A stretch of 33,634 nucleotides of DNA from the IMG/VR virus record IMGVR_UViG_3300025137_000142, positions 1 through 33,634 of that record. One strand, given 5' to 3'. Every line of letters starts with the position of its first letter. Within the stretch, counting starts at the first letter, position 1. This DNA comes from a virus. Of this stretch, positions 401 to 19,081 are shown piece by piece. The notes under the pieces are model-generated. The model had not been told where the DNA came from. It was given only the letters and a program-made list of their open reading frames with translations, and made no database searches. The position numbers were made by a program, and so were the translations under genes.

Positions 401-784
401 ATGCATTCTAAAGTAAACTTCAATGATTTTTTATCTCAACTAAATGAAGACATCGGATCCGACAATATGATACCTGATTCTCAAAGGCAACAACTTGGAC
501 TTAAGTCTGAAGTACCTGCTCAACAGACGTCAGTTAATGATATGATGAGAAGACAAGGAAGAACTGATGTTGCACCAGAAAATATACCATACCCGTTAGG
601 TCAGTTTGAAGATACTGCATCTGAAGCTTATGTTGCTATACAGAATTTAGAACAGATACTTAAAATAGCTAAAACTAATGAAGTTATTAAGAATAAAAAA
701 CCTTTAGATGCTATTGGCAAAGAATTAATCAATTTAAAAAAAGAAATAGTTGATATTTCAAGGAAAGTGTCTAAAATAAAATAA
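401..784 (+). CDS. Putative virion/internal protein of unknown function, 127 aa
   Basis: Start chosen at the ATG at 401 because a perfect late box lies 5 nt upstream; the frame can be extended upstream, but only by reading across the divergent gene and its promoter. The N-terminus (MHSKVNFNDFLSQLNED) contains L-N-E at residues 14-16, a possible prohead-protease site like those in three other proteins of this window. The middle is polar and Gln/Pro-rich, and residues about 75-127 form a Lys-rich amphipathic helical region. The late promoter and targeting-like peptide suggest a packaged head protein, but I do not recognise the family. Its stop overlaps the next start by one base (TAATG). Confidence 0.6.
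   Translation: MHSKVNFNDFLSQLNEDIGSDNMIPDSQRQQLGLKSEVPAQQTSVNDMMRRQGRTDVAPENIPYPLGQFEDTASEAYVAIQNLEQILKIAKTNEVIKNKKPLDAIGKELINLKKEIVDISRKVSKIK
750..777 (+). promoter_or_regulatory. Candidate early/middle promoter for the gene at 784
   Basis: TTGATA (750-755), a 16-nt spacer and TAAAAT (772-777), with AAGGAAA at 760-766 exactly 5 nt before the -10 hexamer. Six bases separate the hexamer from the ATG at 784. The same AGGAA-N5-hexamer arrangement occurs before the genes at 1536, 18597 and 19082. Confidence 0.45.
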
Positions 785-1158
785 TGAAGAAAGCTTTTAT
801 ATCCCTATCTATAACATTATTAGTTAGTATATTATTTGGAGTCATTTTTAAAGATATATATGTATTTTGCATTGCATTTATTTTTCAATTCTTATTTTTT
901 TATCTATTCAATTCAGTTTATGGAAACTACTTAAGCAAGAAGGCTTTACAATTAGCTACTGAATTTGAAAAAGAAAGAAGTAAAAATGAAAGAATCGTTA
1001 CATGTCAATGTGGTGGTAGAAGTACACAAGAGGTTAGTTTAGATCCTACTAAAGAACAAATTTATAATTGTAAAGAGTGTGGTAAAGATATAAGAATTAA
1101 TATTTTTATAGATACAACGTTAGTTACAACTCCAGTTTATAGTGCTTCAAATGGATAG
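784..1158 (+). CDS. Small membrane protein with C-terminal zinc ribbon, 124 aa
   Basis: Two hydrophobic segments (about residues 5-22 and 25-45) predict an inner-membrane hairpin or two-pass anchor. A charged linker follows, then a CxC...CxxC set (C74, C76, C96, C99) typical of a zinc ribbon. No specific family recognised. The start overlaps the previous stop by one base, but the gene also has its own candidate promoter of the non-late type. That suggests expression before the structural genes and a role in the infected cell rather than in the virion; this is inference. It overlaps the next gene by 8 nt. Confidence 0.65.
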   Translation: MKKAFISLSITLLVSILFGVIFKDIYVFCIAFIFQFLFFYLFNSVYGNYLSKKALQLATEFEKERSKNERIVTCQCGGRSTQEVSLDPTKEQIYNCKECGKDIRINIFIDTTLVTTPVYSASNG

Positions 1159-1555
1159 CAATTACGATAAACATTTTAAAGAAGTTAAACCAACTTCCTT
1201 TAGTGAAGAAAAAAAAGAAGTAAATATAACTTTAAATGAATTAATTAATTTTTTTAAGGATGGAAACTTTGAAAACTACCAAGAGCTAAATAATGGCATA
1301 GTATATCAAAAGAATAAAGATCTTAAATTAGTAGAGCAATTTTTTAAGTTACTTATCGAAGAAGCTGATAAAGTACAAAGTAAAGCTAAAAATACTGAGG
1401 ATAATATTTTATTTAAAAATAACAAAAAAATATTAGTAACTAATTTAAATTTCATACGAGAAACTTTTAATCAATACGGTATCAATGAAAGCAGAATATT
1501 ATACTTTCTTTTAGGAACTTTCATACAATATATATATGAGCAACGAAAGTATTAA
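1151..1555 (+). CDS. Hypothetical protein, 134 aa
   Basis: Start chosen at the ATG at 1151, overlapping the upstream gene by 8 nt (ATGGATAG); a GTG nine bases earlier is possible. The protein is charged, Lys/Glu/Asn-rich and mostly helical, with no signal peptide or membrane segment and no motif I recognise. It lies in a chain of short overlapping plus-strand genes (401-1971), so it is probably co-transcribed and translationally coupled. Its 3' end also contains the TAGGAAC-N5-TACAAT element preceding the next gene. Confidence 0.6.
   Translation: MDSNYDKHFKEVKPTSFSEEKKEVNITLNELINFFKDGNFENYQELNNGIVYQKNKDLKLVEQFFKLLIEEADKVQSKAKNTEDNILFKNNKKILVTNLNFIRETFNQYGINESRILYFLLGTFIQYIYEQRKY
1512..1529 (+). 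promoter_or_regulatory. Candidate early/middle promoter for the gene at 1536
   Basis: TAGGAAC (1512-1518), 5 nt, TACAAT (1524-1529), then 6 nt to the ATG at 1536. No convincing -35 hexamer is visible. It lies inside the coding sequence of the preceding gene. Confidence 0.4.
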
Positions 1556-1799
1556 TATTGAAGAAGAATATGGGTTAGATTTTTTAGCAAGATTTGCTTG
1601 TTTATACGAAGGTGTAAATGTAGCATGTGCAAGAGCAGAAAAATTAGGTTATGATACGGAAAAGAGTAATGTGTGGATTAAACCTACAGCATTACAAAAG
1701 TATATTGATGAGAGATATCTAGATATGAAATATGATATGTCACTCTATAAAAAAGGAATGGATACAGATGAAATTTATCCCTGGAACCAGGTTTATTAA
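1536..1799 (+). CDS. Hypothetical protein, 87 aa
   Basis: Overlaps the preceding gene by 20 nt and the following one by 32 nt. The protein is acidic at the N-terminus (residues 8-12) and contains aromatic and charged residues typical of a small soluble phage protein. No recognised domain. Upstream sits one of four copies of the AGGAA-N5-TATAAT-like element, suggesting it can be transcribed separately from the late genes. Confidence 0.55.
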   Translation: MSNESINIEEEYGLDFLARFACLYEGVNVACARAEKLGYDTEKSNVWIKPTALQKYIDERYLDMKYDMSLYKKGMDTDEIYPWNQVY

Positions 1800-1971
1800 T
1801 AAAACCTTTAAACATACAAAATTCTTTAAAAGAGGTGAACCATTTACTATTAAAAATATAAAATTAAAGGATGGTAAAATAGAATATACCTTTGATTTTA
1901 TTGAATATGAAAAGTCTATTAAGTTTAATTCTAGTGAAGAAGCTGATAAAGTACTTTCTGTTATGATTTAG
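1768..1971 (+). CDS. Small basic beta-rich hypothetical protein, 67 aa
   Basis: Start placed at the ATG at 1768. An upstream in-frame ATG at 1732 would lengthen the overlap with the previous gene and add an unlikely N-terminus. From MKFIPGTRFINKTF onward the sequence alternates short predicted beta strands and turns (GEPFTI, LKDGKIEYTF), resembling small SH3-like barrels, though I cannot assign a family. The stop (TAG, 1969-1971) overlaps the convergent neck gene stop in the 4-nt TTAG at 1968-1971. There is no terminator between them. Confidence 0.5.
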   Translation: MKFIPGTRFINKTFKHTKFFKRGEPFTIKNIKLKDGKIEYTFDFIEYEKSIKFNSSEEADKVLSVMI

Positions 1972-2756
1972 TAGTAATCACCGTAGACATCGTTATCATT
2001 GACATCCATATCAAAGACCTCTTTCTTACTAACTTCGTCTATAATATATTCACTATAACCGTCTTTCTTAGTTTCAGTTTGAGGGTTAGCACCTCCACTT
2101 AATCTACCAGCTTCTTTATCTTCATATACTTGCTGATTACCGTTTATACCTTCTCCTGCATCATTGAAAGGTATATTAGGTTCAAAACTAAAGTCTAATC
2201 GTTTTGCTTTTAGTAAAAATACATAATGACCACCAAGTGTATTTATCTGAGATATATCTTGATCTAATTTTTCAGTTATTTCAAAATACTTAGCTTGTCT
2301 ATTACTTGGTCTATCATCACCATATTCTGATAATTGAAATATATCACCAGCTTTGGGTTCAATTACATCAAATTGAGTACCATAAACACCGCTTAAAGTA
2401 AAGAATGAATCATGGAAACTAGATATATGAACATATGCAGTAATATCATCATCACTTTCAAAACCAAATTTACTTAAATTAACTGCATTTTCATTTAAAG
2501 TAGCTGCTATTACTAAATCTCTAGGCTCGGTAAAAGTCTTAGTAGTCTGTTCTCCGTAAAAATTATCAGCACTTAGTACATTATATGTATTTACAAAGTA
2601 TTTAGTTTTAGTACCGAATTGATTAATTTGTTCTCTCCACCAATTACTAAAAAGTAACCTTTCACTATGTTGTATTGACTTATCTGAAAATCTATAAGCA
2701 GTGTCATCACTCTGAACTAACCCAGGGTATTCATTGTTATAGTTTATATTACTCAT
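1968..2756 (-). CDS. 14: Neck protein, T4 gp14-like
   Basis: The 262 aa length is close to T4 gp14 (256 aa), which sits with gp13 at the head-tail junction and closes the filled head. Family-like features are an early Trp-rich helix (NWWREQINQFG, about residues 38-48), a Tyr-rich strand and FYGEQ segment (about 53-70), an acidic stretch leading into a strand (about 100-112), and the pattern AGDIFQL...YFEI...HYVFLLKAK (about 136-195) expected of the beta-barrel core. The C-terminal 60 residues are polar and probably extended. Its ATG overlaps the stop of the upstream gene (ATGA, 2753-2756), so the two are translationally coupled. Identification is by recognised sequence pattern, not alignment. 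Confidence 0.65.
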   Translation of the reverse strand: MSNINYNNEYPGLVQSDDTAYRFSDKSIQHSERLLFSNWWREQINQFGTKTKYFVNTYNVLSADNFYGEQTTKTFTEPRDLVIAATLNENAVNLSKFGFESDDDITAYVHISSFHDSFFTLSGVYGTQFDVIEPKAGDIFQLSEYGDDRPSNRQAKYFEITEKLDQDISQINTLGGHYVFLLKAKRLDFSFEPNIPFNDAGEGINGNQQVYEDKEAGRLSGGANPQTETKKDGYSEYIIDEVSKKEVFDMDVNDNDVYGDYY

Positions 2757-3061
2757 TTTTCGATTACAAATTTACCTATATTATCATCAAAGTATAGACT
2801 TATACCAGTACTACCTAATTTTTTAGTTTCACCTTTATAAGGTATAACTTTATATTCATCTCTTATATATGTTAAGTCTCTCCCATCACATATCTTTTTA
2901 CCTTTACCATTACGAAGTGATTCTATCTTATTATTTTTAGTAGGGTCTGATTTAACGTAATCAGGTACTAAATTAAGATGTTTTCTTCTATAGTTTTTAT
3001 CGTGGTCGGTATAACCTCTACGATGTCTATGGTTGGTAAAAAATTTAGAAAATGTATCCAT
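2753..3061 (-). CDS. Hypothetical protein coupled to the neck gene, 102 aa
   Basis: Start taken as the ATG at 3061-3059, 6 nt downstream of a late-type box. The N-terminal third is very basic and His/Arg-rich (HRHRRGYTDHD), the middle is Lys/Asn-rich, and residues about 60-102 look beta-rich. No family recognised. Its overlap with the gp14-like gene and shared late promoter suggest a small head-tail junction or virion component. Confidence 0.55.
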   Translation of the reverse strand: MDTFSKFFTNHRHRRGYTDHDKNYRRKHLNLVPDYVKSDPTKNNKIESLRNGKGKKICDGRDLTYIRDEYKVIPYKGETKKLGSTGISLYFDDNIGKFVIEK

Positions 3062-3067
3062 CAATAT

Positions 3068-3075
3068 TATTTAAG
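3068..3075 (-). promoter_or_regulatory. Late promoter box for the 3061-1968 operon
   Basis: The minus strand reads CTTAAATA followed by 6 nt (ATATTG) and the ATG at 3061. It directly abuts the T-run of the terminator at 3077-3104. Confidence 0.5.
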
Positions 3076-3076
3076 C

Positions 3077-3104
3077 AAAAAAAAAGCTGGTCGAAACCAG
3101 CTTT
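3077..3104 (-). terminator. Rho-independent terminator with UUCG tetraloop
   Basis: On the minus strand, AAAGCTGGT pairs with ACCAGCTTT (9 bp, 3083-3091 with 3096-3104) around the loop TTCG, followed by six more T. It lies 22 nt after the stop of the acidic gene at 3126-4052 and ends that transcript before the next promoter. Confidence 0.85.
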
Positions 3105-3125
3105 AATTTTCTTTAATTTTTTAAA

Positions 3126-4052
3126 TTAGTTAGATTGGTAATAATCTTCACCTGCACTATAAGCTACTTTATTAGATCCTGGTGATACTTTAGAAAGACC
3201 TGAATCTTTTTGATTTACTAATGGATGACCTTCGTCGTTCACTGAATAACTAGTAATTTTTGGCTTTGAATTTTTACCGCCTTTACCTTTTTTAGCTTTA
3301 GATGATACTACGCTTTTGACTTGATTTGAACCACCTGTTACTGAAGTAGGATTACCACGTTTTTGATTTACTAATGGATGACCTTCATCAGTAGCATCAA
3401 CTGCTTCTTTATGAGTCTCATCTTCATCTTCATCTTCACCGTCTTCTTCGTCTTCTTCCATTTCATAATGTTCACCATCTTCATGTTCCATGTCTTCATG
3501 CTCCATGTCTTCTGCTTCAGGATCTTCATCACCAATAGCTGCTTGTAAAATATCGCAAAGCTGTTTCGCCATATCTTTGTTTAATGTTACCGTAATTTCA
3601 TCAGAGCCCTCATCATCTCCACCCTCTTCGGTATCTACTCCTAGAGCTTCTAATTCTTGTTGTTCTTCATCAGACATTACATTTTCAAAAAGTTTGTCAA
3701 AAGTTGATTTCATATAATTATTTATAGACTCTTTAACCTTTTTTCCAATTTTTTTATCATAATTTTCAGAAGAGTAAATTTTTGGCTCGTATGCATTTTC
3801 TTTTTTACTCTTTTTAGGGTCGATAGGTTCATGAATACCTTCAACTTGATCTGTTTCAGTAGTTTCTTTATTCTGCATATCTTGTGCTTGTTTACTATTC
3901 AACTCAACTGGTCCTTTACCAACTGTATTGCCCGGTAAACCACCTTTCATGTTTCCAGATTTAGCAGCCTTTTCACGAGCTGAAGATTTTTCAGATATAA
4001 TGTTATCATTATATGTATTCCATATTTCGGTTAGAGTATTTACACGAGTCAT
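3126..4052 (-). CDS. Acidic low-complexity protein, candidate prohead core/internal protein
   Basis: 308 aa from the ATG at 4052, chosen because TATAAATA lies 5 nt upstream; a longer frame from 4088 would read through the promoter and into the terminase gene. The N-terminus contains L-T-E at residues 7-9, a possible prohead-protease site. A helical segment near residues 103-133 precedes a strongly acidic tract of Glu/Asp/Met/His repeats (about 180-215). The C-terminal part is basic and Gly/Ser/Lys-rich with two copies of EGHPLVNQK. Acidic helical composition and its place beside head and packaging genes resemble T4 core proteins (gp22, gp67, gp68), but no homology is evident to me. A strong terminator follows. 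Confidence 0.6.
   Translation of the reverse strand: MTRVNTLTEIWNTYNDNIISEKSSAREKAAKSGNMKGGLPGNTVGKGPVELNSKQAQDMQNKETTETDQVEGIHEPIDPKKSKKENAYEPKIYSSENYDKKIGKKVKESINNYMKSTFDKLFENVMSDEEQQELEALGVDTEEGGDDEGSDEITVTLNKDMAKQLCDILQAAIGDEDPEAEDMEHEDMEHEDGEHYEMEEDEEDGEDEDEDETHKEAVDATDEGHPLVNQKRGNPTSVTGGSNQVKSVVSSKAKKGKGGKNSKPKITSYSVNDEGHPLVNQKDSGLSKVSPGSNKVAYSAGEDYYQSN
3207..3233 (-). repeat. 27-nt direct repeat, copy 1
   Basis: Identical to 3360-3386; encodes EGHPLVNQK on the minus strand inside the acidic protein gene. The following residues are also similar (G-S-N-x-V), so a unit of about 30 residues appears duplicated. Confidence 0.85.
3360..3386 (-). repeat. 27-nt direct repeat, copy 2
   Basis: Exact copy of 3207-3233, in the same reading frame and about 153 bases away. 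Confidence 0.85.
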
Positions 4053-4057
4053 GTAAA

Positions 4058-4065
4058 TATTTATA
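4058..4065 (-). promoter_or_regulatory. Late promoter box for the gene at 4052
   Basis: The minus strand reads TATAAATA, 5 nt, ATG at 4052. It fills most of the 18-nt gap to the divergent terminase start. Confidence 0.65.
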
Positions 4066-4070
4066 AGGAC

Positions 4071-5756
4071 ATGGCCAAAGATAAACAAAACTATATGAAT
4101 AACCCTAATCTACCTACAGTAGGGGCTGAATTTCAATATACACCAGAGATGGTTCAAGAGTTAAAAAAATGTGATAAAAACATTTTACATTTTGCAGAAA
4201 ATTATTTCCATATTATTTCATTAGATGAAGGTAAGCAAAATATAAAATTACACTTATGTCAGAAAAGAGCTTTACGTAAAATGCGTGATAATCGCTTCTT
4301 TATATTACTAGCAAGTAGACAGATAGGTAAAACTACTATGATGACAATATATGCTTTATGGGTAGCATGTTTTAACCCTGATCAAAGAATATTAATAGTA
4401 GCTAATAAAGAAGGCACTGCTATCGAGATAATGAGTAGAATTAGACTAGCTTATGAAGAATTACCAAATTGGTTGAAACCTGGAGTTAAAGAATATGGTA
4501 AAACTTCAGTAGTTTTAGCAAATGGTACAAAAATAGGTATATCAACTACTACAGGTACTGCAGCTCGTGGTCAATCAGTTAATTGCTTAATATTAGATGA
4601 GCTTGCTTTTATTGAACCACATTTAGTAGAAGATTTCTGGAAATCAGTATATCCAATTATTTCATCATCTAAAAAATCTAAAATTTTTATAGCTTCAACA
4701 GCTAACGGTACAGATAATTTATTTTATAGTTTATATAGCGGAGCTGAAAATGGTGAAAATGGATGGGCTAGTGATAAAATATTATGGAATGAAGTACCAG
4801 GGAGAAATGAAAGATGGAAACAAGAAACTATAAGTAGTATAGGTAGTCAAGAAGCTTTTCAGCAAGAATTTAACTGCGAATTTATAAGCAGTGGTGAAGC
4901 TTCATTAGATGATGAGTTATTTGAAAGGTTATCTACACAAGTATGCGAACCAAAATATGTCTTTGATGATGGTAAGTACTTATTATGGGATCAACCTAAA
5001 GAAGATCGTATATATATAGCAAGTGTTGATACATCTGAAGGATTAGGTAAAGATGCTTCAGTAGTACAAATATTAGATTATACTGATCTTACTAGAATCA
5101 ATCAAGTTGCTGTATATTATAACAATGAAATATCACCTTATAACTTTACTATTAAGGTCCACGAAATATTACAACACTGGGGTAACCCATTAGTATGTAT
5201 AGAACGTAACAACAGTGGTAGCCAAGTAGTTGATATACTTAAAAATACGCATGATTATGAAAATATAATTTCTTGGGGATCTTCTACAGCTAATAGAAAT
5301 AAAAGTCAATTAGGTATCGTATCACATACTAATACAAAGTATAGAGGTGTAACAAATATGAGATATTGGATAAATGAAGTGGAAGCAGTTCAGATAAATG
5401 ACATTAGATTAGTTAAAGAGTTAAAAACCTATGTAAAAGCTGCTAACGGTACATGGAATGCACGTAAAGGTTATCATGATGATTTAGTCACCTCATTAAT
5501 GTGGAACTTAATTGCACTAATTGATGATATAGTTGACAAATATTTTGAAGTTACAAAAAAAGATGCTAATAATAGGCCATTAGAGCTTCAACAATTCGAT
5601 TATGGTATTAAATATTTTATGGACCCTACTTCTTTATATACTAATGAAAAGCAAGGGGCCAGCAACACATTGCCTATTATTATAGGTAATGCTCAACAAA
5701 CACAAAGTGAAATGGAACAATTAATGCAACAAGGATATAAACCATGGCAGTCGTAA
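4071..5756 (+). CDS. 17: Terminase large subunit (gp17-like)
   Basis: 561 aa (T4 gp17 is 610). The packaging motor cleaves concatemeric DNA and pumps it into the prohead. ATPase domain: Walker A SRQIGKTT at residues 82-89, Walker B LILDE at 173-177 and a coupling motif ASTANG at 208-213. The C-terminal RNase H-like nuclease has the acidic residues D320 (ASVDTSEG), E378 (CIERNN) and D470/D471 (YHDDLV). All key residues are present, so it is probably active. The start lies only 18 nt from the divergent start at 4052. Upstream on this strand is a weak TGTAAATA box (4052-4059), 11 nt from the ATG, and AAGGA too close to be a normal ribosome site. The 3' end overlaps the next gene by 13 nt. The T4 order 17-18-19 is kept apart from inserted genes. 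Confidence 0.95.
   Translation: MAKDKQNYMNNPNLPTVGAEFQYTPEMVQELKKCDKNILHFAENYFHIISLDEGKQNIKLHLCQKRALRKMRDNRFFILLASRQIGKTTMMTIYALWVACFNPDQRILIVANKEGTAIEIMSRIRLAYEELPNWLKPGVKEYGKTSVVLANGTKIGISTTTGTAARGQSVNCLILDELAFIEPHLVEDFWKSVYPIISSSKKSKIFIASTANGTDNLFYSLYSGAENGENGWASDKILWNEVPGRNERWKQETISSIGSQEAFQQEFNCEFISSGEASLDDELFERLSTQVCEPKYVFDDGKYLLWDQPKEDRIYIASVDTSEGLGKDASVVQILDYTDLTRINQVAVYYNNEISPYNFTIKVHEILQHWGNPLVCIERNNSGSQVVDILKNTHDYENIISWGSSTANRNKSQLGIVSHTNTKYRGVTNMRYWINEVEAVQINDIRLVKELKTYVKAANGTWNARKGYHDDLVTSLMWNLIALIDDIVDKYFEVTKKDANNRPLELQQFDYGIKYFMDPTSLYTNEKQGASNTLPIIIGNAQQTQSEMEQLMQQGYKPWQS
5731..5735 (+). promoter_or_regulatory. Shine-Dalgarno-like site for the gene at 5744
   Basis: AAGGA, 8 nt before the ATG at 5744, inside the end of the terminase gene. 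Few starts in this window have such a site. Confidence 0.4.
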
Positions 5757-6358: not shown

Positions 6359-6374
6359 TTTTTATTGCGAAGAC

Positions 6375-6382
6375 AATAAATA
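6375..6382 (+). promoter_or_regulatory. Late promoter box for the sheath gene
   Basis: AATAAATA followed by 7 nt and the ATG at 6390. It overlaps the right arm of a weak 7-bp hairpin (6361-6380). Confidence 0.45.
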
Positions 6383-6389
6383 ATAATAT

Positions 6390-8807
6390 ATGGCTAGAAC
6401 AATACAATCTCCCGGTGTAGAAATAAAAGAAATAGATCAAAGTTTGCGACCAGTCTTACCAGCTGGAACTAACGTATTAGTTGCAGGATTTACAGATCAA
6501 GGCCCTTCAGACGAGGTAATCCAGGTTACAAGTCAGAGTGAGTTCGAACAAATTTATGGCATACCCAAAACTCCAGCAGAGAGATATTTTTATCATAGTG
6601 TAAGACCACTATTTCAGTCTCCTGCTAACATTCAAACATATCGCTTACCTTATGGCGATGATAAAGGTAGAGGATTTGGAAATAAATATTCCGCTTTAGT
6701 ATACACTGCAAGTGCTTATGATATGTCTAATATTGGTACAAGACAATTCGGTACTACGATGGAGACTTATAATGAGCAGGAGACAGATGTTGCATATGTT
6801 CTTAATGCCCCGCAACATGTTGAATTGACTGAAACTCAATATAATGATATTTTACAAAAGAAGACATTTAATTGGTCAGCAAGTGCAGCAAGAGGAAGCG
6901 ATGCATTTAGTGGAGATGATTTAGCAACATTAGGTAGATCAGCTTTAATTGTTCTTAATAAAGCTCAAACAACTATTAATAATAAATTTGAAGGATTTTA
7001 TTTAGGTGGTATTGATAATACAAATCTTAACCCTGCTACTAATTTTGATGGTATTCAAAATGCATTTACCGTAGCAGTATCAGGAGATAAAAAATTAGTT
7101 TCAGATTATACTAAATTACCAGCAACAAGATTACAGTTTGCGTTATCAAGCGTATCTGATAATAGTACTGATACATTCGGAGTAGATGATGGTAGTGTTT
7201 CAGAGGTAATGGAAAACTTAACGCAGTTTGATATTAGTAGTGAAGATTTTAATGACACCCTTTCATTCGGTCTATTTAAATTAAGACAATCACCATTCTC
7301 ACCTGATAGCATTAAATTAGATTATGTTTTATCAGAAAGTTTTGTAGGTTCTACTGATTATCATAGACAAATTCAATCAAAAGACGGTGGTGTACCAAAG
7401 AGCTTTTATTTAGATACAGTAGAAGATGGTTCTCCTAATGTTATAGTTTTAACTAATGACTTTATTTCAAATAGAAATAGTGACGGTTATGCTGATATTA
7501 ATGGTAACCCAACAAAGATTGTTAGATTTGCATCAGGTGTTAAAAAAGCACAAGGCGATTTTGATAATAATACTGCTACATTCGGAGTAAGTAGTGAATA
7601 CATTCCAAGTTATTTCGCTGCATCAAGTGGAGTTACAGACGCTCAAATGACTAACTTAAGGAATAATTTAAATGCACAAGCAACTAATTTTCCAGCAGAT
7701 TCATTATTTCCAGTAGGAGTATATTCTGATAATAAATCAGATTCTAAAAGATTAGGTTCTATACCTGGTAAATTAGATAGATTATTTGACAGTGTAGAAA
7801 ATGTAGATTTATTTGATATTGATCTTACAATTGATGGTGGTATTTCAACAATACATGCAATGAAAGAATTGAATAATGATGAATTTGACGATCTTATATC
7901 AGTCGATTCTACAATGCAAGGTTTTTATACATCAGATATTATTAATGGGTTATCAGATAGTGCTAAGACATTTAGATCTAATTGGAAAACAATCTTTGAT
8001 AGATTTTCTGATTTTGCTGAAAAGCGTAGAAAAGATCATATGTTTATTTCTGACTTACCGAGACCATTATTCCTACAAGGTAAAAGTAATTTAACTTTAA
8101 ATGATGCAAGTAAGAATTTCTCATTAAACGTTCTTAAACCAATCCAAGCTCATACAAGTGTTGTTAATACAAGTTATGCAACAACGTATGGTCAGTGGGT
8201 GCAGATTTATGATTCATATTTAGATGATCAGTTCTACGCACCGTTCTCAGGGTTTGCAGCAGCTTCAATGGCAAATACAGATGCTAATTTCCAACCTTGG
8301 TTTGCACCAGCAGGATTTACAAGAGGGATTGTTACAGGTGTTAATGATTTAGCATTATATCCAAAACAAAAACAAAGAGATCAGTTATATAAGATTTCAG
8401 TTAATCCAGTTGCGTTCTTCCCGAATGAAGGGTTTGTAATGTTTGGTCAAAAGACTTTACTTAAGAAACCAAGTGCATTTGATAGAATTAATGTAAGACG
8501 TTTATTCTTGAATCTTGAAAAAGCAGTTAGACAGACAGTTAAGTTCTTCGTATTTGAACCTAATACATTGCTAACAAGAACAAGAGTTATCAATACCATT
8601 AATCCTATTTTTGCAAATGCTAAGAATACTGAAGGAGTTTTCGATTATTTGTTAGTTTGTGATGAGAGAAATAATACACCAAATGTTATTGATCAGAACG
8701 AATTGGTGGTAGACATCTACTTAAAACCAGTTAGAGCGGCAGAATTTATATTAGTTAACTTTTATGCTACCAGAACAGGTACAGACTTTAATGAATTAGT
8801 TGGTTAA
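6390..8807 (+). CDS. 18: Contractile tail sheath protein (gp18-like)
   Basis: 805 aa, longer than T4 gp18 (659 aa). The N-terminus has the family signature SPGVEIKEID (about residues 7-16) followed by strands entering the first domain (LVAGFTDQGP). The C-terminal domain, about residues 550-805, carries the conserved polymerisation core with the region of FAPAGFTRG, FVMFGQKTLL, FDRINVRRLF, a long helix (LEKAVRQTVKFFVFEPN) and the final strand VNFYATRTG. The extra length lies in the central surface-exposed domains (about 130-520), which vary widely among phages. It wraps the tube encoded at 9448 and contracts on infection. A late box lies 7 nt before the ATG. Confidence 0.93.
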   Translation: MARTIQSPGVEIKEIDQSLRPVLPAGTNVLVAGFTDQGPSDEVIQVTSQSEFEQIYGIPKTPAERYFYHSVRPLFQSPANIQTYRLPYGDDKGRGFGNKYSALVYTASAYDMSNIGTRQFGTTMETYNEQETDVAYVLNAPQHVELTETQYNDILQKKTFNWSASAARGSDAFSGDDLATLGRSALIVLNKAQTTINNKFEGFYLGGIDNTNLNPATNFDGIQNAFTVAVSGDKKLVSDYTKLPATRLQFALSSVSDNSTDTFGVDDGSVSEVMENLTQFDISSEDFNDTLSFGLFKLRQSPFSPDSIKLDYVLSESFVGSTDYHRQIQSKDGGVPKSFYLDTVEDGSPNVIVLTNDFISNRNSDGYADINGNPTKIVRFASGVKKAQGDFDNNTATFGVSSEYIPSYFAASSGVTDAQMTNLRNNLNAQATNFPADSLFPVGVYSDNKSDSKRLGSIPGKLDRLFDSVENVDLFDIDLTIDGGISTIHAMKELNNDEFDDLISVDSTMQGFYTSDIINGLSDSAKTFRSNWKTIFDRFSDFAEKRRKDHMFISDLPRPLFLQGKSNLTLNDASKNFSLNVLKPIQAHTSVVNTSYATTYGQWVQIYDSYLDDQFYAPFSGFAAASMANTDANFQPWFAPAGFTRGIVTGVNDLALYPKQKQRDQLYKISVNPVAFFPNEGFVMFGQKTLLKKPSAFDRINVRRLFLNLEKAVRQTVKFFVFEPNTLLTRTRVINTINPIFANAKNTEGVFDYLLVCDERNNTPNVIDQNELVVDIYLKPVRAAEFILVNFYATRTGTDFNELVG

Positions 8808-8819
8808 TATATACCTATA

Positions 8820-8827
8820 ATTAAATA
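8820..8827 (+). promoter_or_regulatory. Late promoter box for the gene at 8833
   Basis: ATTAAATA, 5 nt (ATAAT), ATG at 8833. Confidence 0.5.
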
Positions 8828-8832
8828 ATAAT

Positions 8833-9426: not shown

Positions 9427-9434
9427 TAAAAAAG

Positions 9435-9442
9435 ATTAAATA
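9435..9442 (+). promoter_or_regulatory. Late promoter box for the tail tube gene
   Basis: ATTAAATA, 5 nt (ATTAC), ATG at 9448. Confidence 0.5.
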
Positions 9443-9447
9443 ATTAC

Positions 9448-9993: not shown

Positions 9994-10000
9994 TTTAAAC

Positions 10001-10023: not shown

Positions 10024-10028
10024 CTATG

Positions 10029-10036: not shown

Positions 10037-10043
10037 TAATTAG

Positions 10044-10892
10044 ATGTCTATATTAAATTCTATTAATAATGCTATACAAGGAGTTTCTAATGCTACAAAT
10101 TCATTAGTCGGTGGTTCAGTAGCTCAACCAGGTTTATCATTATTAGGTACTAATTTACCAGGTGTACCATTAATAAGTATGAGAGACCATTTTCTTAATA
10201 GTTTAGGTCAATGGTCTTCATCGATACCTTTAAATACACAATTTATAATACTTTTTGATAGATTTCCATTAGGACTTACAAATCATACCATTAAAATGTT
10301 AGAAGAGATAGACGGTAGACAGTTTTCAGATATAACTTTAGCGAAATCAGTTACCACAAATTTAAAGAATCAAGGAATGGTAGGTTGTATATTTGCTACT
10401 GGGTTTAATGTTGGTTCAGAAACTTTAGATTCAGACGCCGCAATGATAGATAATAATAGAGGGTTCATTCAAGGTACAATTTTAAAAGATAGAGGAGCCT
10501 TTTCAGGTAATGCTTTAACTATACCATTTAGAGATACTAATACATCGTTTATTGATTTTGTAATTAGACCTTGGTTAATTATGGCAAGTCATTACGGTTA
10601 TGTAGCAAGAAATCCTAACGATTTAAGAGAAAGACTTAAAGATCCTAAATGTAATATAACTATAGTCCAGTATACAAGGAGCGAAAAAGGTTTATCTCAA
10701 ATACCAAGAAAAACTTGGCAGTTTTTCAATTGCGTTCCAACTGAAGTTGATACAAGAGATTATCAATATGCATCAGGAGAATCTGATAAAAACTTTACAA
10801 CTAAATGGGTTTATGATCATTATACAGTTAACAATAACTTGTTTATGAATATAGAAGAGTTGATTAAGTCACTCAACCCGTTTAAATTTTAA
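10044..10892 (+). CDS. Baseplate tail-tube initiator (gp54-like), tube-fold protein
   Basis: 282 aa (T4 gp54 is 320 aa). The N-terminal 60 residues are Asn/Ser/Gly-rich, then a tube-like core: TQFIILFDRFP (about residues 63-74), LTIPFRDTNTSFIDFVIRPW (about 157-176), and a C-terminal block with CNITIVQYTRS, RKTWQFFNCVPTEVD and KWVYDHYTVN (about 203-273). This organisation fits proteins that nucleate tube assembly on the baseplate. It begins a new unit after the terminator and is followed 2 nt later by the next gene. gp54 is chosen over gp48 because the gene at 14045 fits gp48 better; the assignment is by pattern. Confidence 0.6.
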   Translation: MSILNSINNAIQGVSNATNSLVGGSVAQPGLSLLGTNLPGVPLISMRDHFLNSLGQWSSSIPLNTQFIILFDRFPLGLTNHTIKMLEEIDGRQFSDITLAKSVTTNLKNQGMVGCIFATGFNVGSETLDSDAAMIDNNRGFIQGTILKDRGAFSGNALTIPFRDTNTSFIDFVIRPWLIMASHYGYVARNPNDLRERLKDPKCNITIVQYTRSEKGLSQIPRKTWQFFNCVPTEVDTRDYQYASGESDKNFTTKWVYDHYTVNNNLFMNIEELIKSLNPFKF

Positions 10893-10894
10893 TA

Positions 10895-11665
10895 ATGAAT
10901 GAATATCATTATGAAGGATTTATAGTTAAAGAATTAAATTACTTCGATTATAAAAACTTAGTTAAAAAATTATTGACGACAGATATAGAAGTAATAAATG
11001 TTATTTTTAACGAGTTATTCAATAGTTGTTTAATATCTGATAAAAAATATAACGCACTTGATAAATTTAAATTAATTCTTTTTATACGTTCTTTAATATT
11101 AGGTGAAGACATACAAATAAATTACAAAAAGAGAAATTATAATTTAGATGTAACAACTATATTAAAAGATGCTAATATATATGAGAAAGATATAGAGACT
11201 GATTGTTTTGTTTTAAATAATTTTACTAGTTTTTATATAAAAGATATTGGTGAAGAAATAATAAAAAACTTAAAAATTCTAAAAATAAACAATAAAGAAA
11301 TAAATTTAGAAAAATTTTCATTTGAAGAAAAACAAAAAATATTTAACGAAATAACTGATGTTAATATAGTAGATTTATATAATCAATCATTAAAAGATTT
11401 AAAAAATAATAAAATAAAATTTTTAGATTTAGATATAAATCTTCATAACGGTGATCTACTAAATGTATTGAAACATATTTTTAATTACGATTTAAACAGT
11501 TTATATGATTTTGAATATAGTCTAATGAGACATCTTAATTTCACTTCTAATGAATTCAAAAATTATTCTTTTTCTGAATTAAAATTATTTCACAATAAAC
11601 TCAAAGATGAGATGAAGGAACAAAATAAAGACGATAACCCTGGTATACCTACGCAACACAAGTAA
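10895..11665 (+). CDS. Putative baseplate hub assembly protein, 256 aa
   Basis: Starts 2 nt after the previous stop with no Shine-Dalgarno site, so probably translated by coupling. The protein is Lys/Asn/Leu-rich and mostly helical. The N-terminus (YEGFIVKELNYFDYKNLVKKL) and a following region including DKFKLILFIRSLILG resemble, in general pattern and length, the T4-like hub assembly proteins of the gp26/gp51 group (gp51 is 249 aa). The similarity is weak and this could be another chaperone-type tail protein. Placement between tube initiator and tape measure supports a hub or tail assembly role. Confidence 0.4.
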   Translation: MNEYHYEGFIVKELNYFDYKNLVKKLLTTDIEVINVIFNELFNSCLISDKKYNALDKFKLILFIRSLILGEDIQINYKKRNYNLDVTTILKDANIYEKDIETDCFVLNNFTSFYIKDIGEEIIKNLKILKINNKEINLEKFSFEEKQKIFNEITDVNIVDLYNQSLKDLKNNKIKFLDLDINLHNGDLLNVLKHIFNYDLNSLYDFEYSLMRHLNFTSNEFKNYSFSELKLFHNKLKDEMKEQNKDDNPGIPTQHK

Positions 11666-11668
11666 ATA
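11661..11668 (+). promoter_or_regulatory. Late promoter box for the gene at 11674
   Basis: AGTAAATA, 5 nt (TTAAT), ATG at 11674; overlaps the end of the preceding gene. Confidence 0.45.
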
Positions 11669-11673
11669 TTAAT

Positions 11674-12408: not shown

Positions 12409-12415
12409 TATTTTT

Positions 12416-12423
12416 TATAAATA
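12416..12423 (+). promoter_or_regulatory. Late promoter box for the tape measure gene
   Basis: Perfect TATAAATA, 6 nt (TTATTA), ATG at 12430. Confidence 0.65.
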
Positions 12424-12429
12424 TTATTA

Positions 12430-14031: not shown

Positions 14032-14038
14032 TTAAATA
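14031..14038 (+). promoter_or_regulatory. Late promoter box for the gp48-like gene
   Basis: ATTAAATA, 6 nt (TTATTA), ATG at 14045. The ten bases before this ATG are the same as before the tape measure gene (ATTATTA region). Confidence 0.5.
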
Positions 14039-14044
14039 TTATTA

Positions 14045-15307
14045 ATGGCAAACTTATGGACTCTTAAATTTGGTAAAGACGCTAAACTACCTGTATTAGT
14101 TAGATCAGGTACTAACGTCGGTGCAAACATGAGTTTTGTTAAAAATAGAGTTTATAAAGGCCTATCAGGACCATCTGATCCTATTGATGTTAATAATGAA
14201 TTTCCTTGGACTAAAAGTCCTAAATCTTCTAGAGAGGATGTACCTAAACTTAGAATGATTGAAAAAAGAATTACTAAAAATAGTACTGTTAGTAATTTAG
14301 CTTATTCTTTATTAGCAAGTGCAGATTTAGCAAATACTGTAGGTAGCAGTGTTATTGATGCTATAAAACCTGGTGATGAAAAAAATATAGAAGATCAGCT
14401 TAATATTATTCGTCAAGGCGGTAGTGATAATAAAACTGATGCAGCAAAGGATGAAGGTATTTTAAGCACTGTAGCTAAAGCTGCAGGGGAATTATTAACA
14501 CAAGACACATTTCAAAGTAACGTACTTAAGCCATATAATTTTTTATATTCTACTGAAAAAACTGGTTTTGAATATATATTTCCTTACTTAGATAATGCAT
14601 ATCGTGAGTCAAACATTGTTATGGGAAGTGATCAAGGTAATATTGCTTCAGATGTTTTAGGAGTAGTTAGAGATTTTCAACAACAAGCTACCGGATTAGC
14701 TTTAGCAATAAGACCAGGAGTATATATAGAAGAAGCTAAACAATTTACGATGGGTGAAGAAGGTAGAACTTTAACTATAAAAATACCTTTATTAAATACA
14801 GGTAAATATGAAGACATTTCTCGTAATTATCAATTAATTTACGGGTTAATATATCAAAATCGCCCTGGTAGAATTACTAAAAATTTAGTTGATGTACCAG
14901 TTATATATGAAACTTTTATTGAAGGAGTAGCTTATATGCCTTATTCATATATTAAAAGTATGTCAGTGAATTTTTTAGGTAATAGAAGAACGATGGATAT
15001 AAATTTACCAGTAACTAAATTTACTTCAACCGGTTCTGAAGTTGGTACTCAAGTTAGAACAATAAGAACTGCTATACCTGATGCATATGAACTTAGTTTT
15101 CAGATAACTGGGTTAAATGATGAAACTAGAAACTTTATGTACGAAAGTATAGATAGAGGAGTTGTAACAGCAGGTGTTAAAGCGTTAAATAATCCTGATA
15201 TAGACAATACAGCTCCTGGTACAGATGAAACCCAAGGAGGACCTAATATAGGTTCAGGAGGAGCTAGAAGCAATCCTTCCGCTAGTAGAAGAAGGAGGGG
15301 TGACTAA
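14045..15307 (+). CDS. 48: Baseplate tail tube cap (gp48-like)
   Basis: 420 aa (T4 gp48 is 364 aa). The conserved core, about residues 220-330, has IRPGVYIEEAKQF, LTIKIPLLNT, a region of YEDISRNYQLIYGLIYQNRPGRI and PVIYETFIEGVAYMPYSYIKS then MSVNFLGNRR, matching the pattern of T4-like tube-cap proteins. The N-terminal 200 residues include a predicted flexible, Asp/Lys-rich linker. The C-terminus is Gly/Ser/Arg-rich (RRRRGD); these Arg codons provide the AAGGAGG site of the next gene. The stop and next start overlap (TAATG). Confidence 0.75.
   Translation: MANLWTLKFGKDAKLPVLVRSGTNVGANMSFVKNRVYKGLSGPSDPIDVNNEFPWTKSPKSSREDVPKLRMIEKRITKNSTVSNLAYSLLASADLANTVGSSVIDAIKPGDEKNIEDQLNIIRQGGSDNKTDAAKDEGILSTVAKAAGELLTQDTFQSNVLKPYNFLYSTEKTGFEYIFPYLDNAYRESNIVMGSDQGNIASDVLGVVRDFQQQATGLALAIRPGVYIEEAKQFTMGEEGRTLTIKIPLLNTGKYEDISRNYQLIYGLIYQNRPGRITKNLVDVPVIYETFIEGVAYMPYSYIKSMSVNFLGNRRTMDINLPVTKFTSTGSEVGTQVRTIRTAIPDAYELSFQITGLNDETRNFMYESIDRGVVTAGVKALNNPDIDNTAPGTDETQGGPNIGSGGARSNPSASRRRRGD
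15292..15298 (+). promoter_or_regulatory. Canonical Shine-Dalgarno for the gp53 gene
   Basis: AAGGAGG with 8 nt before the ATG at 15307. It is the only full consensus ribosome site I found at a start in the window and overlaps Arg codons of the upstream gene. Confidence 0.7.
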
Positions 15308-15672
15308 TGGATGGTAAATATCAAAAAGATATAAGTCAATTACCTGAACTACAAATGTTTAGGTATGAAAATATATTTAAAGTTTATGAAACTGGTGATA
15401 AAAATTTTTATTACTATAATATATTAAAAAAAATTAATATACCAGATAATTTAAATAATAATTTCTTTGATTATTTAACTTTGTATAAAAATACACCATT
15501 AACTACTATTAGTTATCAATTATACGGTACAACTCACTTATGGTGGTTGATTATGATAGTTAATAAGATCAATAATCCTGTAAAGAGTTTACCTTTAGGT
15601 AAAAAAATAAAATATATAAAAAATAACTATATAAAAGATATTATTGATAGTATTAGCCAACAATTACAATGA
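15307..15672 (+). CDS. 53: Baseplate wedge protein (gp53-like)
   Basis: 121 aa, shorter than T4 gp53 (196 aa) but carrying the core: an N-terminal strand region (FRYENIFKVYE), a segment about residues 55-70 (LTLYKNTPLTTISYQLYG) and the signature LWWLIMIVNKINNP (about 78-91), which is typical of gp53/LysM-like wedge proteins. In T4, gp53 joins neighbouring wedges in baseplate assembly. Start overlaps the gp48-like stop by one base with a strong Shine-Dalgarno; the 3' end overlaps the hub gene by 4 nt. Confidence 0.8.
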   Translation: MDGKYQKDISQLPELQMFRYENIFKVYETGDKNFYYYNILKKINIPDNLNNNFFDYLTLYKNTPLTTISYQLYGTTHLWWLIMIVNKINNPVKSLPLGKKIKYIKNNYIKDIIDSISQQLQ

Positions 15673-17237
15673 TTTTAAATAATATATTAGAATTAACTAA
15701 AAATGATTCTTCTTCAAACGAATATTTGATAGATAATCAAAAATATGTAGTTAAAATTTTATTTGTTAATGCAGACTTAAGTGTTTTTACTATGTCTAAA
15801 AATAGTTTAAAGAGCTTTACAATTAATGACAATGCTTTTGACCCTTTTAATTACTCTTCTATTAGCTTTGTAGATAATGATAATTCATTTGAAAGATTAA
15901 AAACTAATAATGATGATTATGAATTTAACCCAGAACTAAAAAATATACTAAAAGGGTTTCAATACAGAGGAGACGGTAGAGATTTCTTATTTGTAGAATT
16001 AGTACCTATTGATAATGCTAATGAAGTTTACGGTACCGAAAATGATGATTTTAATAATAAATTCGGCTATAGAAAACTTTTTGTATGTACTGATGATAGT
16101 GAATCATTGCAAGGGGATGAGACTATTAAAACTATAAATTTAATTGATTTTGATGAAAAAATTTTAAGAGAACAAAAATCATTTTTTTCGTCAGCTGAAT
16201 TGTTAGAAAATAAAAGTAATATATTTTTACTGTCTAATAATGATAGACAAGTAAAAACTGGGATATGTATTAAAAATTTATTAAAAAATAGTTTATTTTT
16301 AAAGACTTTTAACCAAGTACAAAAACTTAAAAAAGATAACACACCAGATTTCGAAGAAGGTATCAGTGAAATATTCTATACTTCGCCAGCCGATAATACA
16401 GCTTATGACGATCTACTATATTTACTGTCAAAACATGTAAGTGATAGTTCTAGTAATGACTTTTCAATACTTAAAAAGGGAAATTATGATAACAAATATT
16501 CTTTAAAAAGTGTTTCATCATTATTTAAAAAAGCTTATAATGCTGAAGATGGTACAGCAGGTGAAGAAAATTTAGAAAAAATATTTATTACAGGTACATC
16601 AGATAGTGATTCAGTAATACAAAGTGATAAAAAGACACCTAGTAGAATAGCATCATTTGGTCAATATAGTGAAATAAAAAATATTAATTTTTTTAATACT
16701 GATTCTATTATTAACAGTGAAAAAATAAAAACGAAAATACTACATTCATATAATTTTAATAATAAAACTTTTAATATAGATAAAAAAAATACTGATATAG
16801 TAAATGTAAAAAACAAATTTAATGAAAATTATGTTACCAATATGAAAGGTAAAGATAATAATCCCTACCCTAATTTAATAGTAAATCAAATGAAAGGTAC
16901 CAATTTATCATTTGATAATTATTATTCATTATATGGTGAAAATGATAATATAAGACTATCAGAAGGTATCAATAATCTTCTTAAAAGTTCTATAGTTACT
17001 AATTTAGCTGCAGAAATAACTTTAAAAGGTCAATTATTTAGAAAAGCTGGTAAATTTATCAGTATTGAAAGAGACGGAGAATATATAGACAATTTATTTG
17101 ATGATAAATTTTTAGGTATTTACTTTATATTAAATGTAGAACATAATTTTATTGATGATACAAGATATAATAATAAAATATTAGCAGTAAAGACATATAT
17201 ACATACAGACCCTAAATTTAATGAAAAAGTAATATGA
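15669..17237 (+). CDS. Baseplate hub protein (gp27-like)
   Basis: 522 aa, longer than T4 gp27 (391 aa). The C-terminal domain, about residues 450-515, follows the pattern TLKGQLFRKAGKFISIERDG...DDKFLGIYFILNVEHNF...NNKILAVKTYI, which is typical of hub proteins of T4-like phages. The N-terminal half contains beta-rich segments expected of the gp27 barrels, with a polar, disordered-looking insertion around 235-330. It would form the trimeric hub joining tube and baseplate centre. No lysozyme domain is fused here, and no gp5-like gene is seen in this window. Overlaps neighbours by 4 nt on both sides. Confidence 0.65.
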   Translation: MILNNILELTKNDSSSNEYLIDNQKYVVKILFVNADLSVFTMSKNSLKSFTINDNAFDPFNYSSISFVDNDNSFERLKTNNDDYEFNPELKNILKGFQYRGDGRDFLFVELVPIDNANEVYGTENDDFNNKFGYRKLFVCTDDSESLQGDETIKTINLIDFDEKILREQKSFFSSAELLENKSNIFLLSNNDRQVKTGICIKNLLKNSLFLKTFNQVQKLKKDNTPDFEEGISEIFYTSPADNTAYDDLLYLLSKHVSDSSSNDFSILKKGNYDNKYSLKSVSSLFKKAYNAEDGTAGEENLEKIFITGTSDSDSVIQSDKKTPSRIASFGQYSEIKNINFFNTDSIINSEKIKTKILHSYNFNNKTFNIDKKNTDIVNVKNKFNENYVTNMKGKDNNPYPNLIVNQMKGTNLSFDNYYSLYGENDNIRLSEGINNLLKSSIVTNLAAEITLKGQLFRKAGKFISIERDGEYIDNLFDDKFLGIYFILNVEHNFIDDTRYNNKILAVKTYIHTDPKFNEKVI

Positions 17238-18088
17238 GTTTTAAAACAACATTAATACCTGAATATACTGATACAATTATTCTACAAAAAGAAGAATTTT
17301 ATAAAAAAAATACTGACCTTATTGATGTAATAGGAGATTACTTAACTGAATTAAATTTAAATATAGACTATGAAAAGGGTAAATCTTCCGGAAGAGCATT
17401 TGCTAATACTGTATTATTTTATAAAAGCTTAAATGATGAAGATTTTACTATAGATGATAAAAAAATTGATGAATCATTTAAAAACTATTACATAGAAAAA
17501 TATAATAGTCTATTTATAGATATAAAAAATTCAGTATCTAATTTCATTAAAGATAACGTTTATTTTAAAAATTATTCAGATGATGTTGGTATATTATTTG
17601 ATAGCAATAGTATTATAGATAATAGTATATCACCTTATTTTGATGTTTTTTATAGTGAAACTGAAATACCTAATAACTTAAATACAACTATTTTTAATAA
17701 AACTACATTAGACAATAAATCCTTACAGAAAAAATTTACTAAATTTAATGATGCACTGATGAAGACTAATTTGAAAGGTATAGTAGGAGATAATTCAGAT
17801 ATATCAATACAAACAACTTCGCATGGTTATAATATTACTAATGATTACAAATATTATGAACGATTTTTTAATTTTAAAGAGCCAATGATAAAAAATATTG
17901 TTTCAAATATAAAAGGTTTGGGGGAGTATATACTCTTTATAAAAGATTTAAACTTAAGAGACAATGAAACTGAGTCGAGTTTATTCAGTTACAGTTATAA
18001 AATAGAAGGTATTGAGGAGCAATATGATATTTTAAAGAATAAATTAGATGTTAGTATATACACTTCTAATTCTATATTATCTTCTTAG
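17234..18088 (+). CDS. Hypothetical tail/baseplate protein, 284 aa
   Basis: Follows the hub gene with a 4-nt overlap (ATGA) and is the last gene of the long plus-strand run. The protein is Asn/Asp/Lys/Ile-rich, predicted mainly helical in the N-terminal half, with aromatic-rich strands later. No signal peptide or membrane segment. I do not recognise it. By position it could be the hub distal component (T4 gp28) or a baseplate chaperone, but no sequence feature shows that. Its stop overlaps the convergent gene in the TTAG at 18085-18088. Confidence 0.55.
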   Translation: MSFKTTLIPEYTDTIILQKEEFYKKNTDLIDVIGDYLTELNLNIDYEKGKSSGRAFANTVLFYKSLNDEDFTIDDKKIDESFKNYYIEKYNSLFIDIKNSVSNFIKDNVYFKNYSDDVGILFDSNSIIDNSISPYFDVFYSETEIPNNLNTTIFNKTTLDNKSLQKKFTKFNDALMKTNLKGIVGDNSDISIQTTSHGYNITNDYKYYERFFNFKEPMIKNIVSNIKGLGEYILFIKDLNLRDNETESSLFSYSYKIEGIEEQYDILKNKLDVSIYTSNSILSS

Positions 18089-18549
18089 TCAGATACTTCA
18101 GCTTCAATTATATCAGCATCATTAATTAATTTTTTAATTAATTCTTCTCTGTTAATTGTAAGACCTAGTAGTTCGTTAGAAGTATTTTGAAGTTCTTTTT
18201 TACTTTGAATATCAATCTCTTTTATTTCTTTTCTAGCTTCATTATTCTTATTAGTAATATGAATTTTATTAAGACTTTCTATAGCAGCAGCTGAAGCACC
18301 TACTAACTTACTTAAAGCTTCTAAATCTTTATAATCAGGAGCAGCTGTTATAAACTGCTTAACATCTTCAACATAATCTACACTACCTTTAATTAGCTTA
18401 CCTGAATATTGTAATAAAAATTCTTCTAAATTCTCATTACTTAAATTTAAATCACCATCTTGAATTTGTTTATTAACTTTAGTTGAACCTTTTAACTGAC
18501 TTAAAAGGTCTCCAACAACGCTTTCTACATCTTCATCTTCTTTACTCAT
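18085..18549 (-). CDS. 16: Candidate terminase small subunit (gp16-like), 154 aa
   Basis: Length is close to T4 gp16 (164 aa). The core, about residues 48-105, consists of two long helices joined by a short turn (GKLIKGSVDYVEDVKQFI, then DYKDLEALSKLVGASAAAIESL), followed by NKIHITNKN. This is the arrangement of the helical-hairpin core of T4-like small terminases (helix, short turn, long helix, then LHK-like end). The tail contains LGLTINREELIKKL, reminiscent of the (V/L)GxTxxL motif near the C-terminus of that family. Acidic N-terminus. It is about 12 kb from the large subunit, on the other strand, next to dUTPase. A late box lies 5 nt before the ATG. Confidence 0.5.
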   Translation of the reverse strand: MSKEDEDVESVVGDLLSQLKGSTKVNKQIQDGDLNLSNENLEEFLLQYSGKLIKGSVDYVEDVKQFITAAPDYKDLEALSKLVGASAAAIESLNKIHITNKNNEARKEIKEIDIQSKKELQNTSNELLGLTINREELIKKLINDADIIEAEVSD

Positions 18550-18554
18550 ATAAT

Positions 18555-18562
18555 TATTTAGT
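18555..18562 (-). promoter_or_regulatory. Late promoter box for the gene at 18549
   Basis: The minus strand reads ACTAAATA, 5 nt (ATTAT), ATG at 18549. It abuts and shares base 18562 with the -35 hexamer of the divergent dUTPase promoter. Confidence 0.45.
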
Positions 18563-18590
18563 TGAAAACTGTTAGGAACGTTAATATAAT
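18562..18590 (+). promoter_or_regulatory. Sigma70-like promoter with AGGAA element for dUTPase
   Basis: TTGAAA (18562-18567), a 17-nt spacer, TATAAT (18585-18590). TAGGAAC (18573-18579) lies exactly 5 nt before the -10. Only 6 nt separate the -10 hexamer from the ATG at 18597, so the predicted transcription start is at or beside the start codon. Confidence 0.65.
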
Positions 18591-18596
18591 AGATAT

Positions 18597-19061
18597 ATGA
18601 GTGAAAAAGTTAATATAAAGTTTATAAAAACGCATGACGATGCAGTTTTACCAACTAAAGCGCATGATGGTGATAATTGTTTCGATTTATATGCAGTTGA
18701 AGATACGGTTGTAAGAGGTAGTTGGTCATGGTTTGGTCAAACTCGTGTAGGTAATGAAGTGGTTCCAGTAGGTATTACTGTAGCAGATATAACTCCTGGT
18801 TATGGATTTGTATTAAGACCTAAATCTGGATTAGGTTTTAAAGCAGGTTTACAACCTCATTTAGGTGAAATTGATAATGGTTATAGAGGTGATTGTGCAG
18901 TTAAGATGTATAATTTTTCTCATGAAGATTATTACTTTAAAAAAGGTGATAAAGTAGCTCAGATTAAAATTGAAAAAATTTATGATACAAAAGTTAGTTG
19001 GGTTAAAAAAGTAACTAAAGCAAAACGTGGTGATGCTGGTTTTGGATCAAGTGGTAAATAG
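18597..19061 (+). CDS. dut: dUTP diphosphatase (dUTPase)
   Basis: 154 aa, the normal length of trimeric dUTPases, with all five motifs: HDGDNCFDLYA (residues 23-33), RPKSGLGFK (74-82), GEIDNGYRGD (90-99, with the catalytic Asp and the Tyr that stacks on uracil), GDKVAQIKI (117-125) and the C-terminal RGDAGFGSSGK (144-154) that closes over the substrate. Hydrolyses dUTP to dUMP and pyrophosphate, limiting uracil in phage DNA and supplying dTMP synthesis. It heads a three-gene cassette with the basic protein and clamp loader. The promoter is of the non-late type. The Trp-rich insert SWSWFGQ (42-48) is a small variation. Confidence 0.95.
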   Translation: MSEKVNIKFIKTHDDAVLPTKAHDGDNCFDLYAVEDTVVRGSWSWFGQTRVGNEVVPVGITVADITPGYGFVLRPKSGLGFKAGLQPHLGEIDNGYRGDCAVKMYNFSHEDYYFKKGDKVAQIKIEKIYDTKVSWVKKVTKAKRGDAGFGSSGK

Positions 19062-19076
19062 GAACTATTATATAAT
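19059..19076 (+). promoter_or_regulatory. Candidate early/middle promoter for 19082-20103
   Basis: TAGGAAC (19059-19065, its TAG is the dUTPase stop), 5 nt, TATAAT (19071-19076), then 5 nt to the ATG at 19082. No -35 hexamer is apparent. Confidence 0.45.
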
Positions 19077-19081
19077 TAATT

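Follow-up and report, generated by a model that had tools for sequence, protein, structure and literature searches.

In the middle promoters of phage T4, which are used by AsiA-modified sigma70 polymerase, the role of the -35 element falls to a MotA box (TGCTTtA) located at about -30, with constant spacing to a sigma70-type -10 element. The -35 element is also dispensable in extended -10 promoters carrying TGn, including the middle and late promoters of Thermus phage P23-45 (gp39), and Caulobacter GcrA-type co-activators are DNA-binding cofactors that act via sigma2 and not sigma4 (PMC7403470). A further element within the promoter spacer, the Z-element, extends from -24 to -18 and has been proposed to contact the beta-prime zipper of RNA polymerase (Yuzenkova et al. 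2011, cited in PMC4496709). Here, we describe an AGGAAC box found upstream of TATAAT in a group of uncultured T4-like phages. The best explanation of the data as a whole, to which we assign a probability of roughly 80%, is a clade-specific, leaderless promoter class of the sigma70 type, active before the late phase, in which the box serves as a second anchor.

The window, i.e. the whole 33.6-kb stretch of DNA that was analysed, is a fragment of a T4-like phage with a GC content of 27.8% and contains genes for terminase, sheath, tube, baseplate proteins, dUTPase, and gp44; the sheath, tube, and baseplate genes are presumed identities, named in part from synteny. Positions 1–28813 are 99.94% identical to part of a 78-kb contig (G025), which thus represents the same phage and supplies 49.4 kb of extra sequence for an independent test. 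In the window, AGGAA-N6-TANAAT has exactly four matches on the + strand and none on the - strand, with ATG located 6, 6, 6, and 5 nt downstream, and the reversed control has no match in the whole window. The narrower form AGGAAC-N5-TA[TC]AAT was observed three times, compared with 0.04 times in dinucleotide shuffles (maximum, 1), and a start codon lies 5–7 nt downstream of all three copies. A first-pass annotation had grouped the four matches as one shared element; all four strings are where it placed them, and those at 1513, 18574, and 19060 stand, whereas the one at 761 (AGGAAA) was removed from the class. The sites and the genes behind them are as follows.

750–777, + strand: TTGATA-N16-TAAAAT promoter-like site before gene 784; rejected as a class member, AGGAAA being present by chance
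1513–1529, + strand: AGGAAC box (1513–1518) and -10 TACAAT (1524–1529), exact motif; putative promoter of gene 1536–1799
1536–1799, + strand: gene behind the box at 1513, encoding an 87-aa conserved phage protein
18562–18567, + strand: -35 TTGAAA of the putative dUTPase promoter, separated from TATAAT by a 17-nt spacer that contains the AGGAAC box
18574–18590, + strand: AGGAAC box (18574–18579) and -10 TATAAT (18585–18590), exact motif; putative dUTPase promoter
18597–19061, + strand: dUTPase gene, behind the box at 18574 (phrog_135, E = 2.9e-35)
19060–19076, + strand: AGGAAC box (19060–19065) and -10 TATAAT (19071–19076), exact motif; putative promoter of the gene for a 35-aa basic protein
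19082–19189, + strand: gene for the 35-aa basic protein, behind the box at 19060; read from the sequence, 85% identical in locus L049
19189–20103, + strand: clamp loader gene gp44 (phrog_168, E = 4.7e-74)

At the first of the three retained sites, the predicted transcription start (+1) is at or near the A of ATG 1536, and 10 other loci with an orthologue of this gene (50–72% protein identity) also have the motif in front of it. The 87-aa product has no PHROG or Pfam match and has homologues in 19 other loci of the clade delimited below. The predicted +1 of the dUTPase promoter is at ATG 18597. The box at 19060 overlaps the dUTPase stop codon and is conserved in L049, where it reads TAGGAACTGTAATATAATATAGATATG; the stop codon of the 35-aa protein gene in turn overlaps the gp44 start. 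No motif of its own is found directly upstream of gp44, which is presumably transcribed together with the 35-aa protein gene from the 19060 box.

The fourth match (761, AGGAAAGTGTCTAAAAT) falls within the final codons of the preceding gene and has A at the position where the box has a near-invariant C (95–96% where that position was left free). In the orthologues in G016 and G023, the residues are kept and TTGATA/TTGATT-N16-TAAAAT-N6-ATG is retained, yet AGGAA is gone, and the site was excluded from the class for this reason; it is probably an ordinary promoter of the -35/-10 class. One of the two -35-like hexamers pointed out in the annotation, TTGAAA at 18562–18567, belongs to a box promoter (spacer 17), whereas the other, TTGATA at 750–755 (spacer 16), belongs to the rejected site.

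The annotation had proposed that the motif should be enriched before replication and metabolism genes elsewhere in the genome. In the held-out 49.4 kb of the same phage, seven copies of AGGAAC-N5-TA[TC]AAT were found versus 0.04 in shuffles. The AGGAA-type sites in this region precede the genes for DNA polymerase gp43 (which begins with GTG at N6), gp32, the gp45 sliding clamp, a QueE-like protein, dATP/dGTP diphosphohydrolase, and two uncharacterised proteins, and one site has no gene behind it. Among 2.9 million viral contigs, TAGGAAC-N5-TATAAT-N6-ATG was detected in at least 119 stretches, with up to 10 copies per stretch among the matches listed; controls with a spacer of 4, a spacer of 6, and reversed words gave 14, 27, and 19 stretches, respectively, all with single copies. 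The motif-rich contigs that contain a terminase group with the window (53–85% identity), the best matches in cultured T4-like phages being about 40% identical or less, and almost every locus with at least two copies has homologues in this clade. In 12 other T4-like phages, including T4, Syn9, P-SSM2, S-ShM2, HTVC008M, and phiM9, zero or one copy each was found, which rules out a general promoter of T4-like phages or cyanophages, and the strict form has three scattered matches in the chromosomes of 84,980 bacterial species, which rules out a bacterial chromosomal promoter type for that form. The motif thus appears to be specific to a clade of uncultured T4-like phages and absent from the cultured relatives examined. 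No matching description of an AGGAAC/TATAAT element was found in the open-access literature; a paper on phage pf16 contains both words and describes no such element.

The geometry of the motif is rigid. In 1.35 Mb of clade DNA, AGGAAC and TATAAT are separated by 5 nt in 260 exact copies, whereas any other spacer from 0 to 59 occurs in at most 8 copies and the reversed control in at most 3. ATG follows at N6 in 145 of the exact copies and at N5 in 35. Lack of enrichment and random placement relative to starts, the two outcomes that the annotation had named as fatal, were therefore not what was seen, and the idea of a promoter class survived. The consensus of 331 sites is WWAGGAAC-TYTGA-TATAAT-AAWAG-TATG, in which, of the positions left free in the search, the last one of the box is C in 96% of sites and the third -10 base is T in 95%, as in a canonical TATAAT; nothing is conserved farther upstream of the box, including near -30, where a MotA box would lie. 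If TATAAT is placed at -12 to -7, a start codon at N6 makes the A of ATG the +1 position and the box spans -23 to -18, and the box promoters are accordingly predicted to be leaderless, with +1 at the start codon. In one lineage (G009, L149–L154), the prevailing form is AACGAAC-N5-TATAAT (23 copies, besides 10 of AGGAAC); a scan of viral contigs for this variant yielded 31 stretches, and TGGAAC and CGGAAC are among the box variants of another phage (G006). The drift to AACGAAC in one lineage suggests that the box has a dedicated reader.

The relationship of the box to the -35 element was analysed in 430 starts with TA[TC]AAT-N5-7-start, with the -35 element scored at N16/17. Among these predicted leaderless starts, 251 have the box only, 65 the -35 element only, 16 both, and 98 neither, i.e. 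the two are mutually exclusive (odds ratio 0.10, p = 5e-18, a value that overstates the certainty because the copies are not phylogenetically independent), and no such pattern was seen at control spacers 20/21. A canonical -35/-10 arrangement is not a feature of the box promoters, 16/267 of which have a TTGACA-like hexamer at N16/17. Within the group to which the window belongs, 10 of 38 box promoters have TTGA at spacer 17, compared with 0–1 at spacers 14–16, 18, and 19. Orthologous genes switch between the two elements: the dUTPase gene has both in the window and the -35 element alone in L049 and G006; ssb has both in G015, G016, and L097 and the -35 element alone in G023, G007, and others; and gp43 lies behind the box in G015 and G023 and behind a -35 element in G006. 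TGn is found in 69/267 box promoters versus 11/163 others, and in 67/251 starts with the box only versus 4/98 with neither element. Because of the mutual exclusion and the switching between orthologues, the box appears to take over the role of the -35 element, either substituting for it or helping it, which argues against a plain repressor site.

According to PHROG and Pfam scans (best 25 families per scan), the proteins encoded behind the box include DNA polymerase, helicases, ligase, SSB, a sigma factor, dUTPase, dATP/dGTP pyrophosphohydrolase, QueC, QueE, and tRNA nucleotidyltransferase, whereas those behind TAAATA-N5-7-start (best 25 families per scan) include portal, major head, sheath, tube, terminase, baseplate, and tail fibre proteins and endolysin. 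The box gene set is separate from that of the TAAATA late box, in agreement with the earlier description of the box genes as non-structural or uncharacterised and lacking the late box. From this gene set, we infer that the box promoters are pre-late. Within that period they may be early or middle. Of the core replication genes, uvsX, uvsY, gp55, and ssb mostly have plain -35/-10 promoters, and clusters of small early-like genes bear the box (27 copies on one strand of G001), a distribution that suggests the reverse of what would be expected for a middle class; the orthologues in which the box is swapped for a -35 element suggest that both work at the same time.

Several other features of the clade were observed. 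The T4-type late box also appears to be leaderless, with 362 copies of TAAATA-N5-ATG and 129 at N6 versus about 30–84 at other spacings, and in the window it is found in this form before the starts at 6390, 8833, 9448, 12430, 14045, and others. The QueC-like and QueE-like genes behind box promoters (L178:12325–13077 and other clade contigs) may indicate a 7-deazaguanine DNA modification. Genes for tmRNA are present in three clade phages (L135:715–1126, L155:15777–16193, and L197:670–1018), that of G007 with a box promoter, and the 221-kb G006 (L196–L197) carries a tmRNA gene together with about 39 genes for tRNAs, one of them labelled tRNA-Pyl (cta). The gp44 and terminase genes of G006 (about 21317–23616 and 38662–41562) give two-piece matches with 1.2–1.4 kb between the pieces, as does gp43 of G024 (14603–17322; 0.14 kb); introns, inteins, or split genes are possible. 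A DUF1501 protein (L155:12583–13806; PF07394, E = 2.4e-102) is found in five contigs and is a possible clue to the host.

Under the preferred reading, a polymerase carrying a sigma70-type factor would recognise TATAAT at -12 to -7 and start transcription at the A of the start codon or within 1–2 nt of it, with the AGGAAC box at -23 to -18 as a second anchor that usually replaces the -35 element and would often act together with one in the lineage of the window. A phage-encoded protein could bind the box and thereby recruit the host polymerase or stabilise it; we regard this as the likeliest reading, at about even odds. Such a factor would follow MotA-like logic but act at another site, roughly 10 bp nearer the start, with no homologue of MotA or AsiA involved. 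Domains of MotA (PF09114) and AsiA (PF09010) were detected in the T4 control and in none of the 11 clade records searched, which may be incomplete, and no candidate activator gene for the box was identified, which counts against an activator.

A role in translation instead, or a by-product of codon usage, is very improbable. The fixed distance to start codons and the similarity of AGGA to the Shine-Dalgarno core are what would be expected of a translation signal, yet the motif includes a complete TATAAT, alternates with -35 elements, and, at four tRNA genes, one tRNA labelled Pyl, and one tmRNA, ends 8–13 nt upstream of the mature 5' terminus, and 43/251 sites have no start codon close by. Because RNA genes are also preceded by it, the motif is better regarded as a promoter. 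Moreover, Shine-Dalgarno sequences are found in the clade contigs at background level (6.4% versus 6.6% at an offset control; in pieces of other T4-like phages the figure is 40%, from 25 genes only), and on both grounds a Shine-Dalgarno function, already doubted in the annotation on account of distance, was rejected. The same background level is observed in contigs G002–G025 (L129–L217) even for operon-internal genes, and the lack of this signal points to a host with Shine-Dalgarno-independent translation.

Two other readers of the box were considered. RNA polymerase itself could recognise it as a spacer (Z-) element with sequence specificity, contacts from the beta-prime zipper and sigma region 3 standing in for the sigma4/-35 contact; a phage protein would then be unnecessary and the promoters would be immediate-early. 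The position of the box coincides with that given for the Z-element in PMC4496709, the higher frequency of TGn beside the box and the dense arrays in the clusters of small early-like genes are in keeping with this idea, and the exclusivity and swaps of box and -35 element between orthologues fit direct reading by polymerase as well as they fit an activator. However, the Taq open complex has no protein contacts from -29 to -18, the zipper being at the -17 phosphate (PMC4593229), the near-invariant GGAAC resembles the target of a dedicated DNA-binding protein, and the strict form is nearly absent from bacterial chromosomes, so that we consider direct reading possible but doubtful. Reading by a special sigma factor, either a phage RpoD-like sigma or an alternative host sigma, is less likely still. 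An RpoD-like sigma of about 380 aa comprising regions 1.2 to 4 is encoded in four clade phages, with 53–71% identity to the G003 protein, and in G003 and G005 its gene is itself behind a box promoter:

G003, 2887–4020 (L134): RpoD-like sigma
G005, 10509–11660 (L138): RpoD-like sigma
G007 (L156): RpoD-like sigma
G014 (L202): RpoD-like sigma

The best solved relatives of this protein are housekeeping sigma factors. Its region 4 is housekeeping-like and should therefore read ordinary -35 elements, and -23 to -18 is not within easy reach of sigma region 4. The protein was not found in the motif-bearing 221-kb G006 or in G009, G021, G024, and G025 (records that may be incomplete), and it was rejected as a general reader on this ground.

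Compared with the described systems, the box promoters resemble T4 middle promoters in that a box, constantly spaced from a sigma70 -10 element, stands in for the -35 element and in that the gene sets overlap; the analogy had been drawn in the annotation, and the mutual exclusion of box and -35 element backs it. The clade phages are also T4-like in having a gp55-type late sigma, found in several records, and a TATAAATA-like late box. In contrast to T4 middle promoters, the box is AGGAAC, lies nearer the start than the MotA box, and is followed by a start codon at the predicted +1, and homologues of MotA and AsiA were not found in the records searched. The class is thus MotA-like in its logic but is not a member of the MotA-type family. 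GcrA reads methylated DNA, in which it differs from the box class, the likeness being a DNA-binding cofactor that acts through sigma2. Like extended -10 promoters, the box promoters would need no -35 element; they have TGn in only about a quarter of cases and carry the additional AGGAAC upstream of it. The Z-element occupies the same spacer position; it is not known to be read sequence-specifically (PMC4496709). On balance, we lean slightly towards the view that AGGAAC is a previously undescribed second anchor for sigma70-type polymerase within the spacer that replaces the -35 element, is read either by the core of the polymerase or by a phage factor with no relation to MotA and AsiA, and organises pre-late transcription throughout the clade.

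Marine T4-like phages are said to be without identifiable middle promoters, and sequence divergence is one explanation that has been offered (PMC9004378). The AGGAAC motif makes a strong candidate for a pre-late, phage-specific class in one clade of this kind. The motif provides hundreds of natural test cases of an anchor that would replace the -35 element from inside the spacer, and its exact rule may allow genes to be assigned to the early/middle or the late class, and start codons to be corrected, from sequence alone.
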